This document shows positions 4,363 through 14,232 of a stretch of 64,000 nt of DNA, piece after piece (position 1 is the first letter of the stretch; each line of letters starts with the position of its first letter). The notes below the pieces were generated by a model, which worked only from the letters and a program-made list of their open reading frames with translations, searched no databases and was not told where the DNA came from. The DNA lies in assembly GCA_958296105.1 (NCBI GenBank), contig OY282441.1, positions 1,027,800 to 1,091,799 of the forward strand, written 5' to 3'. The position numbers and the translations under genes are program-made. The stretch is from an uncultured Dehalococcoidia bacterium. GTDB taxonomy: Bacteria > Chloroflexota > Dehalococcoidia > Lucifugimonadales > UBA1123.

Positions 4363-5406
4363 TTAGGGGGCGTCCTCATCCTCTATCAGCACGATTACAT
4401 CGTCTGAATCGGCTCTGGCTCGGTCTTCGTCTCGAATTCGGTAGCCTATGGCGACGGCGATGGCGTCATCGTCGAATACGGACCTCAGCGCGGCGGCAGA
4501 CTCGGATGCGCGGGCGATGTCTCTCTGAGCGATGGAGCCTGATGCCTCGACTGCAATCCAAACTCCGGACCCATCGAGCTTACGGCGTGAGTGAACTATG
4601 AGGTCCGTCTGCTTGATCCGATCTTCCTGATCGTCTGTGATCCTGCCAGCGTCCGCTGCGTCTTCCACTCGGGATATGAATTCGCTTTCAGAGCCGGGCA
4701 TCAAGTTTGGGTGATACGTGATGCGCGTGCGCCTGAGACCAAGCATCTGGGTGAGGCGCGGGGGAAGTATGGTCGCAATTCTTCGCTCCAGCCTGTCGCC
4801 AATGAGTATTCCAACCTTGTCTTCGAGACGCGCAATCGCTCTAGTGTGTTCAGCCTGTATCTCCGCCATCTTTTGCACTACGGCGGTCAGATCATCCATA
4901 CGGACAGTCAAATCGTCCACACGGGCGGTTAGAACATCCACACGAGCGGTCAAAATATCCAACCGAACAGTCAGATCGTCCACACGAGCGGTCAAAGCAT
5001 CCACGCGGGCGGTTAGAGCATCCACGCGGACAGTCAGATCATCCACACGAGCGGTCAAAGTATCCACGCGGGCCGTCAGGGCATCCATACTGACAGTCAG
5101 ATCATCCACACGGGCGGTCAGAGTATCCACGCGAGCGGTTAGATCATTCAAACGAGCAGTCAGAATGGCTATCTGCTCTGTGTTGCTCTGAACTATCGCA
5201 GTAAGATCATCGAACCGACTGGTCAGAGCTGCTATCTGCTCCGTGTTGCTCTGAACTATCAGAGTAAGATCATCGAACCGACTGGTAAATTCGGCAAATC
5301 TCTGCGGCAGCGCCAAGAGTTCGTCGGTCAAGATGGCGCGACGAACCTGCTCTCTCACTTCGGGCCTCTCCTGTATGGCCCTGATGATGTCTTCGACTGT
5401 GGTCAT
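4363..5406 (-). CDS. Repeat-rich coiled-coil protein with PD-(D/E)XK-like C-terminal domain
   Basis: Three parts are visible. An N-terminal helical segment (TTVEDIIRAIQERPEVREQV) is followed by a long coiled coil of near-identical seven-residue units of the LTARVDD type (roughly residues 50-185). The C-terminal domain begins near PPRLTQMLGLRR and contains TDLIVHSRRK followed by IAVEAS. That order (Asp, then a strand with Glu) recalls the PD-(D/E)XK nuclease fold, but the usual Lys after Glu-x is missing, so activity is doubtful. The gene at 13274-14212 has the same three-part plan and is a paralog. An upstream ATG exists at 5433, but TATAAT (5425-5430) lies inside that extension, so the ATG at 5406 is preferred. 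Function is unknown. Confidence 0.75.
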   Translation of the reverse strand: MTTVEDIIRAIQERPEVREQVRRAILTDELLALPQRFAEFTSRFDDLTLIVQSNTEQIAALTSRFDDLTAIVQSNTEQIAILTARLNDLTARVDTLTARVDDLTVSMDALTARVDTLTARVDDLTVRVDALTARVDALTARVDDLTVRLDILTARVDVLTARVDDLTVRMDDLTAVVQKMAEIQAEHTRAIARLEDKVGILIGDRLERRIATILPPRLTQMLGLRRTRITYHPNLMPGSESEFISRVEDAADAGRITDDQEDRIKQTDLIVHSRRKLDGSGVWIAVEASGSIAQRDIARASESAAALRSVFDDDAIAVAIGYRIRDEDRARADSDDVIVLIEDEDAP

Positions 5407-5424
5407 AGCGGTACTCACTTGGTC

Positions 5425-5430
5425 ATTATA
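5425..5430 (-). promoter_or_regulatory. -10 box TATAAT of the coiled-coil gene
   Basis: Perfect TATAAT on the minus strand, 18 bases before ATG 5406. The paralogous gene at 13274-14212 has TATAAT at nearly the same distance (20 bases), so both transcripts should have very short leaders. Confidence 0.5.
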
Positions 5431-5596
5431 CATGATACACCCGCGCGCATCGCGTTAGAAGTCACCCTTTCATGTCATGCCTGTGAATGACACTGTCTGC
5501 CTTTCCCCCCGATAGTCCATGTAGATGCACCCCTACGCGGCGGGTATGCGATGGAACGGGGCGTTTGGCTTCACGGTATGGTACATTCTAATCGGC

Positions 5597-6349: not shown

Positions 6350-6356
6350 AGTCGGC

Positions 6357-6478
6357 GTCTTTCTCACACTCGCGCCAGCCATCTCCCATCGTAGGGGAGC
6401 GGGATACTCGATTGCGCGCTTTTCTCACCCTCACTCAAACCATCTCCCATCGTAGGGGGAGCGGGATACTCGATTGCG
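6357..6478. repeat. Two tandem copies of a ~61-bp intergenic repeat
   Basis: Copies at about 6357-6416 and 6419-6478 share a nearly identical core (ccatctcccatcgtagg, then gagcgggatactcgattgcg). The repeat lies between two convergent genes and has no coding potential. It differs from the repeat family at 28.7, 38.4 and 48.4 kb. Confidence 0.8.
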
Positions 6479-6515: not shown

Positions 6516-7322
6516 TCAAGCCAGATACGGCGCGCATCTGGCGACGCTCTCTCTGGTATCGAGCCTGATGATTGGGCGGACGTGGGAGAAGTAGGGGGTG
6601 GCTATCAGTGTTCCGCTATCGGAAGTCTCGAAATGAAAGCTGTCGTGGCTCAGGCTGTACTCGCCGCCGTCTATGGCCACGCCCAGCGTCCCAAGCTCGT
6701 TCTGGGCTAACAGATCCACGTTTCGGACTCCTGCGGGCGCGGCGGCGGCGTTTATGGTGACAACGCTGAGGACAGAGGCAGGCAGGCTGTTCGCATCCAG
6801 TACGGGGGACAATATAGTGAGAATCGTCGGCTCCAGCTTCTCCACCAGCTCGGAGAGCCTGTCGCTTCCCCTGTCGGTGACGAGGTGCGCGGGGACTCCC
6901 TCCCTGACGAACGCTCCGCATATCTCCGCGCCGAAGTATCTGCTCTCGGAAGTAGTCGCCACCAGCGCGGTCGGATAGTCCACGCCTTTCGGGACGGCAT
7001 GGGAGAGCGCCCTGCCCATCAGCTCCATCCTGATCCGCGCCTCGTCCGCGCCCTCGACAGTCGGCGGGCGACGCGGCGATTGGCCGAGCAGGGGGCCTGC
7101 GATCCAGCTTATCTCGCCGGGAGCGGCGATCAGGGAGTCCAGACGCTGCCGCCGATACTCGGCTACGGTCGTGACGGGCAGCTGTTCGAAGTCTGCGAGG
7201 GAGCGTATGGCAGGGCTGCCCAGCTTGCGTCGCCATACGCTCGCTCGGCCGGCCGACTCCACCACCGAAGCCAGAAGCTCGATGTGATTGCGCGGTCGTC
7301 GAACCGCTCTCGGTCGGCTCAT
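6516..7322 (-). CDS. Shortened adenylate-forming-enzyme (PaaK-like) relative, probably non-catalytic as a ligase
   Basis: A 268-residue protein whose sequence order recalls phenylacetate-CoA ligase-like members of the ANL superfamily. SLADFEQLPVTTVAEYR resembles the N-terminal LP-x-TTK helix of PaaK enzymes. RYFGAEICGAFVREGVPAHL and EPTILTILSP fit the middle Rossmann-like part. The end, SGTLIATPYFSHVRPIIRLD, resembles the conserved T-x-L...PLIRY-x-TGD segment. Missing are the Ser/Gly-rich P-loop (SSGTTGKP), the TGD aspartate region and the whole C-terminal domain; the family usually has 400 or more residues. The gene overlaps the stop of the upstream gene by ATGA, so the two products should be made together. 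The assignment is by eye; a folded scaffold or a new activity are both possible. Confidence 0.55.
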   Translation of the reverse strand: MSRPRAVRRPRNHIELLASVVESAGRASVWRRKLGSPAIRSLADFEQLPVTTVAEYRRQRLDSLIAAPGEISWIAGPLLGQSPRRPPTVEGADEARIRMELMGRALSHAVPKGVDYPTALVATTSESRYFGAEICGAFVREGVPAHLVTDRGSDRLSELVEKLEPTILTILSPVLDANSLPASVLSVVTINAAAAPAGVRNVDLLAQNELGTLGVAIDGGEYSLSHDSFHFETSDSGTLIATPYFSHVRPIIRLDTRESVARCAPYLA

Positions 7323-8719
7323 CTCAGCTGCACCACCGCAATCCCCATCTGGCAGCCCGCGCCTTCGAAATGCTCGTATCTGCTAAGTAGATGGTCATGT
7401 GAATCCAGAATCGAGCGCGACGCGGCAGGCTCTCGGCGCTGAAACGTCTCGCCCAGAGGGCCGTCGAGATGCCAGTCGGGATTGGCGTCGAAGTCGAGAT
7501 CGCGCGATTCGGTCAGATGCCGATACAGGTCGACGAGCGCTTCGAACTCCTCCTCCGTCCTGTGCGGAAGCGGGGAGACGAGGAAGTCCTCGGTTATCGC
7601 CAGTCCAAGCTCGTTGTCGAAAACCTGCACCAGATCTATCTCCGGGACGAAGTTTTCCATCATGTAGAAGAGCGACATGGCGAGATCGTCGGGCGCGCGG
7701 TGGTAGTAGAAGTCCTCCGTATATGTCCCCATCCGAACGCGGACGGGCTTGGGGCTGTCGCCGTCCAAGACATCGGCGCTGGGCATGAACAGGAATGGGA
7801 TGTTGCCGTTGGTCGCGTCAACCAAGATGCGCTTGCCGCAGATCACGTACTCCAGCGCGGTGTGCTGCCAGTAGCGCATGGCGGAGTGCGCGCCCCTGAA
7901 GTCCAGGCTTTCGATAATCTGGCGAAGGCGGTCTTCGGGCATGGGGCCAATGGCGTCCGGCCCGGCGAATACGCAGCGCGACTCGAAGCCGTACTCGTCT
8001 GTTAGGAACTTGAGCGCCTGCACCTTCTCGGAGCAGATAGCCCCTCCGCCGCCGATCATGTTCAGGATCGACTCGTCGCCCGTCTTGTACGCCAGCTTCT
8101 GTCCGGTGAAGCGGGAGTAGTTCTCGAACGGGCTGTCCCAAACGGCCTTCGCCACGCGACGCAGGAATTCGACTCCCTCTTCCGACGCATCGGGGGATGG
8201 CTGCGCGCCGCGCGCCGCGTCTCGAACGAATCCCTCCAGCGCGCTTCGGTTTCTCTCCCAGCGGCGGCGGTGGAAGCCTGTCCAGCTCCGCGTGTACTCT
8301 GCCTCGCTGCGATCTATGGAGACGTCGATCAGGCTCACGGCGCAGCCATTCAGGTCTGCCGCCACCTTGCGCGGAATCTGGTCGGGTGAAATCTCGCGGA
8401 CACCGCATCGGTAGATCGCGCCGGGGACGGCACCGCCGAGAGCGCCGCCGTCTGACAGCGTCAGGGCCAGATCCTGAACGGATTGAAGCTCCGAAACCGA
8501 GTCGGGCAGAATCAGGCGCGCCGACACGAGCGGCCGGATATCCTCCACCGCTAGATACTTCGCAATGAGCGCGGCGAGGGTGGCATCCGCATCGGCGCGC
8601 GCCACCCTCAGCGTGCAGGATCGCCTCGTCAGGTAGTCCGTCCACCTGAGAAAGCACGGGGGGGCGCTCCTGTCGGTCCTCAATCCTATTTCCTCTCTGG
8701 CAACATGGTCTATAATCAT
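7319..8719 (-). CDS. Transglutaminase/arylamine N-acetyltransferase-fold protein
   Basis: A protein of about 466 residues with a likely Cys-His-Asp triad. Counting from ATG 8719, Cys229 lies in GGGAICSEKVQALKFL, His286 in YWQHTALEYV and Asp301 in ILVDATNG. The Cys sits at the start of a helix, and the 15-residue His-Asp spacing equals that of arylamine N-acetyltransferases; transglutaminase-like cysteine enzymes share this fold. The N-terminal ~200 residues match nothing I recognise. The C-terminal part (DLAMSLFYMMENFVPEID) is also unassigned. The start is uncertain: ATG 8719 and 8731 lie within the divergent promoter region, and a TTG at 8683 has a good GAGAGGA site. Translation of the downstream adenylation-like gene is coupled through ATGA. 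An acyl or peptide transfer role is inferred from the fold only. Confidence 0.6.
   Translation of the reverse strand: MIIDHVAREEIGLRTDRSAPPCFLRWTDYLTRRSCTLRVARADADATLAALIAKYLAVEDIRPLVSARLILPDSVSELQSVQDLALTLSDGGALGGAVPGAIYRCGVREISPDQIPRKVAADLNGCAVSLIDVSIDRSEAEYTRSWTGFHRRRWERNRSALEGFVRDAARGAQPSPDASEEGVEFLRRVAKAVWDSPFENYSRFTGQKLAYKTGDESILNMIGGGGAICSEKVQALKFLTDEYGFESRCVFAGPDAIGPMPEDRLRQIIESLDFRGAHSAMRYWQHTALEYVICGKRILVDATNGNIPFLFMPSADVLDGDSPKPVRVRMGTYTEDFYYHRAPDDLAMSLFYMMENFVPEIDLVQVFDNELGLAITEDFLVSPLPHRTEEEFEALVDLYRHLTESRDLDFDANPDWHLDGPLGETFQRREPAASRSILDSHDHLLSRYEHFEGAGCQMGIAVVQLR
8711..8716 (+). promoter_or_regulatory. -10 box TATAAT placing the transcript start at the ATG
   Basis: TATAAT ends 6 bases before ATG 8723. 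A start site 6-8 bases downstream of the -10 would coincide with the start codon, predicting a leaderless mRNA; there is also no ribosome-binding site in front of the ATG. The same short interval must serve the divergent gene ending at 7319. Confidence 0.55.
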
Positions 8720-8722
8720 ACA

Positions 8723-9439
8723 ATGAAACATCTACGCATCGGCAGAGCAGGTTTGGCGCTGATCGCAGCGCTGGCGGTGATCGTCAGCCTATCGGTTGGC
8801 TGTGGGCGAGGTGAGCCGCCCGAAGGGGCCGGCGAGCGCGCTATGGTAAAGGACGAGGCGACTGCCACGCCAGTACCTGAACCGAGCGCGACGCCGATTC
8901 CAACTGCTACGCCAGTACCCGAACCGAGCGCGACGCCGATTCCAACCGCCACGTCTGCTCCCGAGCCGACGCCCGTTCCGACGGAAGCGCCGACTCCGAG
9001 GGTGATACGAAGGCCGTCGGAGGGCGCGCCCGAGGCGGCGCCTGGCTTCATGGTGGAGACGTTCGACGGCCAGACGCTGCGCCTGTCCGACCTCGAGGGC
9101 AAGGTGGTAGTCCTCAACTTCTGGGCGTCGTGGTGTCCGCCGTGCCGCTGGGAGATGCCGTCTTTCGAACGGATATGGCAGGAGTACCGCGAGCGCGACG
9201 TGGTATTCGTGGGGATCGCCATGTCGGACACGTTCGAGGATGCGAGCGAGTTCGCGGAGGCGTCGGGAGTGACCTACCCCTTGGCACTCGACACCACGCA
9301 CGACATAGCGCGGGAGTACGAGGTAGTTTCGCTGCCGACCACGTTCTTCATAGACAAGGCGGGCCACATCCAGCGGCGCTTTGGCGGCCCCGCCAACGAC
9401 GGCGTGCTGAAGATCTTTCTGAACGGCCAGCTGGAGTAG
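8723..9439 (+). CDS. TlpA/ResA-like thioredoxin-fold lipoprotein
   Basis: Membrane-anchored thiol-disulfide oxidoreductase of 238 residues. A signal peptide ends in a lipobox with Cys27 (LSVGC). A Pro-Ala-Thr-rich linker with repeated ATPVPEPSATPIPT units (about residues 45-90) spaces the domain from the membrane. A redoxin domain follows, with the active site WCPPC (Cys138, Cys141) in NFWASWCPPCRWEMPSF and the cis-proline loop VVSLPTTFFID. Proteins of this type reduce disulfides outside the cytoplasmic membrane, for example in cytochrome c maturation, but no such genes are near. ATG 8723 is chosen over the earlier in-frame codon because the -10 box lies between them. Confidence 0.9.
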   Translation: MKHLRIGRAGLALIAALAVIVSLSVGCGRGEPPEGAGERAMVKDEATATPVPEPSATPIPTATPVPEPSATPIPTATSAPEPTPVPTEAPTPRVIRRPSEGAPEAAPGFMVETFDGQTLRLSDLEGKVVVLNFWASWCPPCRWEMPSFERIWQEYRERDVVFVGIAMSDTFEDASEFAEASGVTYPLALDTTHDIAREYEVVSLPTTFFIDKAGHIQRRFGGPANDGVLKIFLNGQLE

Positions 9440-13273: not shown

Positions 13274-14212
13274 CTAGCGCTGCGGCCTCCTCAGGAATAC
13301 GTACACGCCTCTGTCCTGGGCGTAGGTCCTGTCCTGTTCGGACATCCTGGCCCCGTACACCGCCGGCAGAATCTCCGCATCCGAGTAGATCAGGGCAAGC
13401 GCTTGCGCGGACTGCACCACCCTGTCGACATCATCTCTGTCGATCTGGTTGGACACTTCCACCGGCGTGTACACGTCTCGACCCTCGGCACCTCTGCCCC
13501 GACGCGACTTGGCGATCAAGTCGGTGCTCATCAGCCGATTGTACTGCTCGTCTGTAATGTCGCCCATTTCGTCAGCGTCGTGGATGGCGTTGTCGAACGC
13601 GGGCAGCGACCCTCCGGGATAGAGCGCCCTGACTACTTGGACTCGGCGCACCCCCAGCCTCAAACTCAGCAGTCCGTGGATTCTGCCCTGGAGGCGCATC
13701 TCCATGTGGTCGCCTTTTATACTGTCGAGATCCAGCCGCATGACTCTAACGTTCTCATCCAGCCGAACATGCGCGGCAGCCAGCTCTGCCATGGCGCTCT
13801 CCAGCTTGTCGAAACGCGCGTTCGTCGTCTCCATGAACCGCGTCTGAGTCGTCTCCAAGGCGTCCAAGCGCGCGTTCGTGGACTCCATGAACCGCGCCAG
13901 CGTCGCCGACAGCTCGGCCATGGACTTCTCCAGCTTGTCGAAACGCGCGTTCGTCGTCTCCATGAACTGCGCCAGAGTCGCCGACAGCTCGGCCATGGAC
14001 TTCTCCAACTTGTCGAAGCGCGCGTTGGCAGACTCTGTGAACCGCGCCTGCGCGACCGCAAGCTGCTGGACGGTCTCGCTCAGCTCCGCAACTACCTGCG
14101 GCAGATCCAGCAGCTCGCGGGTCAGCAGCCGCGAGCGCGCCGCTTCCAGCCACTCCGGGTTTTCGTCCATGATTCGGATGAAGTCTTCGAAGGTGTTTAT
14201 GGTGGTGGTCAT
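13274..14212 (-). CDS. Second coiled-coil protein with degenerate nuclease-like tail
   Basis: A 312-residue paralog of the protein at 4363-5406. The N-terminal segment (NTFEDFIRIMDENPEWLEAARSRL, LDLPQVVAELSE) aligns with that protein's TTVEDIIRAIQERPEV...LALPQRFAEF. The coiled coil is made of about 25-residue units of the NARFDKLEKSMAELSATLA type. The C-terminal domain opens with LLSLRLGVRRVQVV and contains ITDEQYNRLMSTDLIAKSRR and VYTPVEVS, matching ITDDQEDRIKQTDLIVHSRR and IAVEAS. Both thus have a conserved Asp followed by Glu-x-Ser where PD-(D/E)XK enzymes have Glu-x-Lys. ATG 14212 is preferred because GGAG precedes it by 7 bases. The role is unknown. Confidence 0.72.
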   Translation of the reverse strand: MTTTINTFEDFIRIMDENPEWLEAARSRLLTRELLDLPQVVAELSETVQQLAVAQARFTESANARFDKLEKSMAELSATLAQFMETTNARFDKLEKSMAELSATLARFMESTNARLDALETTQTRFMETTNARFDKLESAMAELAAAHVRLDENVRVMRLDLDSIKGDHMEMRLQGRIHGLLSLRLGVRRVQVVRALYPGGSLPAFDNAIHDADEMGDITDEQYNRLMSTDLIAKSRRGRGAEGRDVYTPVEVSNQIDRDDVDRVVQSAQALALIYSDAEILPAVYGARMSEQDRTYAQDRGVYVFLRRPQR

Positions 14213-14232
14213 TCGCGTCTCCATTGGGTTGT

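Follow-up and report, generated by a model that had tools for sequence, protein, structure and literature searches.

Genes A and B, an overlapping pair in the 64,000-nucleotide stretch of DNA analysed here (the window), are pieces of one lineage-specific gene cluster in a single Dehalococcoidia order, and in the window's genome they form its detached head. Genomes with gene A as a rule also hold a divergent SecA paralogue (SecA2) and a lipobox lipoprotein, usually at the same locus, and within the order gene B is confined to genomes that carry ANL4, a full-length ligase with intact motifs.

The gene pair in the window

The earlier note had described two minus-strand genes overlapping by ATGA, and both reading frames were found where it placed them, with the start of B lying over the stop of A (A ends at 7319 and B starts at 7322). 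The features are as follows.

7319..8731, minus strand: gene A, a predicted 470-aa NAT-like cysteine acyltransferase
Gene A, residues ~25-145: N-domain, tentatively ubiquitin-like/beta-grasp-like (AF2 model)
Gene A, residues ~150-467: NAT-like domain, carrying Cys233, His290 and Asp305
6516..7322, minus strand: gene B, a 268-aa PaaK-type adenylate-forming N-domain without P-loop and C-terminal domain

The true start of gene A is uncertain, as its relatives align from residue ~20-28. The surroundings of the pair hold a repeat 3' of B (6355-6478, two imperfect tandem copies at a spacing of ~61 bp) and, transcribed in the opposite direction from A, the gene for a thioredoxin-like lipoprotein that contains Pro/Thr repeats (8705-9439); three sister genomes likewise have a member of this family upstream of A. 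Further away, the proteins encoded at 4363-5433 and 13274-14224 are a similar-looking pair with heptad-like repeats and a C-terminal part that they seem to have in common.

Gene A and its predicted domains

Searches of Pfam, NCBIfam and PDB with the single sequence of gene A gave nothing usable. Profile-profile comparison with nine arylamine N-acetyltransferases (NATs) gave an E-value of 1e-5 with a score of 48.2, where the highest score of 20 column-shuffled controls was 21.9 and that of the reversed control 19.4, and the alignment pairs FEN, GGxCxE around the cysteine, and H-x14-D. The Cys-His-Asp triad that the earlier note had pointed out is present with its His-Asp spacing of 15 residues; the positions 229/286/301 given there were counted from Met5 and correspond to Cys233, His290 and Asp305 when numbering begins at the first ATG of the reading frame. 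All three residues are invariant across 37 non-redundant family members, and the triad is therefore not a product of chance.

An AF2 model of gene A was built from 16 homologues (pLDDT 77, falling below 50 at residues 228-232 in the active-site loop). Its best PDB fold matches are all NATs, at Z 9.6 to 8, and cover residues ~158-376 and up to 467; the top match, at Z 9.6, aligns 156 residues with an rmsd of 4.1, the active-site loop being poorly modelled. Transglutaminase folds scored lower than the NATs (TglA Z 6.7, FXIII Z 5.7), and the Pfam transglutaminase search gave no match for gene A. The gathering cut-off of PF00797 was missed, with a best E-value of 0.039 among 16 members, and a PF00797 search of 21 genomes returned no gene A match above cut-off. 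By profile and predicted fold gene A is a distant homologue of the NATs, and since it scores under the Pfam cut-off it is best regarded as a sister family and not as a Pfam-grade member. Of the two enzyme groups that the earlier note had named, NATs and transglutaminase-like enzymes, the NATs are the likelier relatives of A, and cysteine acyl transfer is its most plausible chemistry.

The N-terminal residues that had been left unassigned in the earlier note remain so at the sequence level, with ~150 residues having no match in Pfam, NCBIfam or PDB. Residues 25-145 of the model resemble ubiquitin-like folds (Z 5.5-7), with SAMP1 at Z 7.0 (rmsd 2.9, 82 residues aligned) and the other ubiquitin-like matches at 5.5-6.6; because all of these lie under the noise mark of Z 8, the assignment of a ubiquitin-like or beta-grasp fold is tentative. 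The N-domain of f11, a protein family of the wider cluster, was considered as a second copy of this domain and rejected, the match not being significant (E 0.23).

Gene B and the ligase ANL4

Gene B had been described as a PaaK/ANL-type ligase cut short, without P-loop, TGD motif or C-terminal domain, and most of this description stands. Its profile matches a PaaK-like PDB chain with an E-value of 2.8e-11, and its model (pLDDT 88) matches residues 12-318 of PaaK1 at Z 22 over 258 residues with an rmsd of 3.0. None of the 13 aligned members has a P-loop, a YYGxSE segment or a C-terminal domain; the loss of TGD does not extend to the whole family, as the position reads TRE in the window's gene B but TGD is retained in at least two relatives. 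Gene B is, on profile and model, a PaaK-type N-domain without catalytic motifs.

ANL4 is a full-length PaaK-like (PaaK/FlxY-like) ligase that keeps SSGTTG, YYGASE and RYxxGD. B and ANL4 occur in the identical 18 of 45 genomes, and the other genomes of this set gave only weak, generic matches of at most 133 bits. The homodimer interface of PaaK rebuilds its missing first subdomain, and dimerisation proceeds through the N-domain (PMC4432964). As this is the domain that B keeps, B is most likely, by analogy, a non-catalytic subunit or partner of ANL4, and the role of carrier or scaffold for A that the earlier note had proposed for it is less likely, given that its strict companion is ANL4. With so exact a correlation, the idea that a ligase may have a non-catalytic subunit of its own can be put to the test.

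Distribution and cluster architecture

Among 400 sampled Chloroflexota genomes, gene A was found in two, both from the window's own order; a scan of genome contigs with a single A sequence returned one close relative only, and no A was found in the plasmids searched. Within the order (250 genomes), A is present in 44 genomes and B in 18, always together with A. A survey of gene neighbourhoods had been proposed to see whether the pair is always adjacent: A and B do adjoin in 13 of the 18 genomes that have both, but 26 of the 44 A-genomes have no B. The pair is not adjacent in G016, G043, G639, G640 and G641, so that the genes stand apart in up to five genomes; in G639 and G641 A and B are on different contigs of draft assemblies. 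Beside B in G043 lies a tandem pair of ~525-aa paralogues (L044:10725-13903).

The possible two-protein system of the earlier note is not a closed one in this distribution, in which A tracks SecA2 and the lipoprotein, and B tracks ANL4. In 60 genomes, A and SecA2 were found together in 16, SecA2 alone in one that is 77% complete, A alone in none and neither in 43 (Fisher 1e-13, a P-value that ignores shared ancestry and is inflated by it). The lipoprotein is present in 15 of the 16 A-genomes. DUF3326 was found in 29 of the 35 A-genomes tested, being absent from six, and in none of 30 genomes without A.

In the relatives, A and B stand at the head of a same-strand gene cluster, the composition of which differs between families.

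Window's family: A, B, NspC-like decarboxylase, DUF3326, ANL4, divergent SecA and lipoprotein, with f11 in some genera
Several other families: A, B, K+ channel with RCK, ANL4, GNAT-like, Usp, SecA2, lipoprotein and f11, with some members missing
Family f41: A, sometimes the channel, SecA2, lipoprotein and f11; no B and no ANL4

Synteny of A, SecA2 and the lipoprotein was found in several families, and the extra modules are lineage-dependent, being either the NspC-like PLP decarboxylase and DUF3326 or the K+ channel, GNAT-like protein and Usp. SecA2 carries ATPase motifs and scores under every SecA and SecA2 cut-off of NCBIfam. The lipoprotein has a lipobox and a tail rich in Ser, Tyr and Gly; neither it nor f11 had a match in Pfam, and a PADLOC search for defence genes matched none of A, B, SecA2, the lipoprotein and f11. 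A SecA-like frame of 571 aa adjoins the presumed canonical SecA (a 949-aa frame) at G000:C1:344982-347905.

The gene order of the sister genomes is A-B-NspC-like-DUF3326-ANL4 with SecA2-lipoprotein nearby, and in the window's genome ~1.15 Mb separates A-B from the remaining genes, NspC-like to lipoprotein, which occupy C1:2181035-2188849. Because the sister genomes keep NspC-like, DUF3326 and ANL4 beside B and have the same gene upstream of A as the window's genome, the simplest reading is that a rearrangement between B and NspC has split the cluster there.

Proposed mechanism and alternatives

The model that we favour, with a probability of roughly 0.45, is drawn from sequence and holds that ANL4 and B would activate an acid and that A would acylate an amine, which may be a small molecule or part of the SecA2-linked lipoprotein. 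ANL4, dimerised with B as a non-catalytic partner, would convert a carboxylic acid to its adenylate or CoA thioester, the acyl group would pass to Cys233 of A, and A would transfer it to a small amine, for instance the one that the NspC-like decarboxylase would make; the acceptor may alternatively be an amine on the lipoprotein, a candidate from gene linkage, or on an associated protein. SecA2 would export the lipoprotein. Since most A-genomes are without ANL4 and B, these would not be needed for the core role of A, and in such lineages A would draw on general acyl-CoA pools. In the window's genome, 1.15 Mb lies between A-B and the remaining genes, which counts against the model and makes co-regulation there no more than a possibility. 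More tentatively, the genes may make up an accessory Sec system specific to this lineage: the NAT-fold transferase, with its putative ubiquitin-like domain, would covalently acylate or conjugate a dedicated SecA2-exported lipoprotein, and in some lineages the acyl donor would come from a ligase that has a dead PaaK as its dedicated subunit.

Gene A could instead be transglutaminase- or peptidase-like, catalysing amide transfer or hydrolysis on a protein, for example the placing of a polyamine onto the lipoprotein tail or the trimming of that tail, and an activated acyl donor would then be unnecessary, which suits the A-genomes without ANL4 and B. By analogy, the peptide-spermidine ligases YgiC and YjfC stand beside DUF1190 lipoproteins, and the recurring NspC-like polyamine-type decarboxylase, K+ channel with RCK and Ser/Gly-rich lipoprotein resemble polyamine/PSP operons (PMC11237479; E. 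coli loci). The TglA and FXIII fold matches point the same way, although they lie under those of the NATs; profile and fold both favour a NAT, and the lipoprotein has no detectable homology to Pfam families or to YgiB/YjfM, its match to these DUF1190 proteins not being significant (hhalign E 0.18-0.19 against single sequences). We regard this explanation as rather unlikely. A dedicated complex of A and B, with B as scaffold or carrier for A, would account for the translational-type overlap in the window, the frequent adjacency of the two genes and the presence of A in every B genome; it is improbable, given that B is missing from most A-genomes, that the two stand apart in up to five genomes and that B pairs one-to-one with ANL4. 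Equally improbable is that ANL4, B, the NspC-like decarboxylase, DUF3326 and A are simply an ordinary pathway to small-molecule amides, with SecA2 and the lipoprotein as mere genomic neighbours. Ligase, NAT-type transferase and decarboxylase would be a sensible amide-making set, and gene order is variable, but A stays with SecA2 and the lipoprotein in families without ANL4 and B (f41 and f36), the opposite of what such a pathway predicts.

Comparison with known systems

No description of this cluster or combination was found in the literature searched, most subscription journals being outside its scope; the cluster is apparently undescribed, and each part taken alone is a variant of something known. 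To our knowledge, no NAT-type acyltransferase is known to work with a private SecA and a surface lipoprotein, and here the set of A, SecA and lipoprotein is conserved across several families of one order. If A does modify the lipoprotein, this would be a case of a NAT-fold enzyme with a protein substrate in an export pathway.

Accessory SecA2 systems likewise have a second SecA with ATPase motifs that is linked to a surface protein gene, and in streptococci the SecA2 partners are glycosyltransferases and Asp proteins. The SecA of this cluster differs in scoring under the family cut-offs and in having partners of neither kind. Polyamine/PSP-type operons combine a K+ channel, a lipoprotein and a peptide-spermidine ligase (YgiBC, YjfIJKLMC) (PMC11237479); the present cluster recurrently has a lipoprotein, a K+ channel with RCK domain and a polyamine-type decarboxylase, but no ATP-grasp ligase, DUF350 or PspA was recognised among its annotated genes. 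With the PaaK-type phenylacetate-CoA ligases and ClxA, AjiA1 and NatL2, gene B has the N-domain topology in common, whereas its P-loop and C-terminal domain are missing, the YYGxSE segment is deleted and it tracks a full-length paralogue. The NATs of PF00797, which include amide synthases such as GdmF, resemble A in the Cys-His-Asp triad, FEN, GGxCxE, H-x14-D and, as far as the model goes, the fold; unlike them, A falls under the Pfam cut-off, was seen in a single order when 400 Chloroflexota genomes were sampled, carries a fused N-domain of ~145 residues and is linked to a SecA paralogue.
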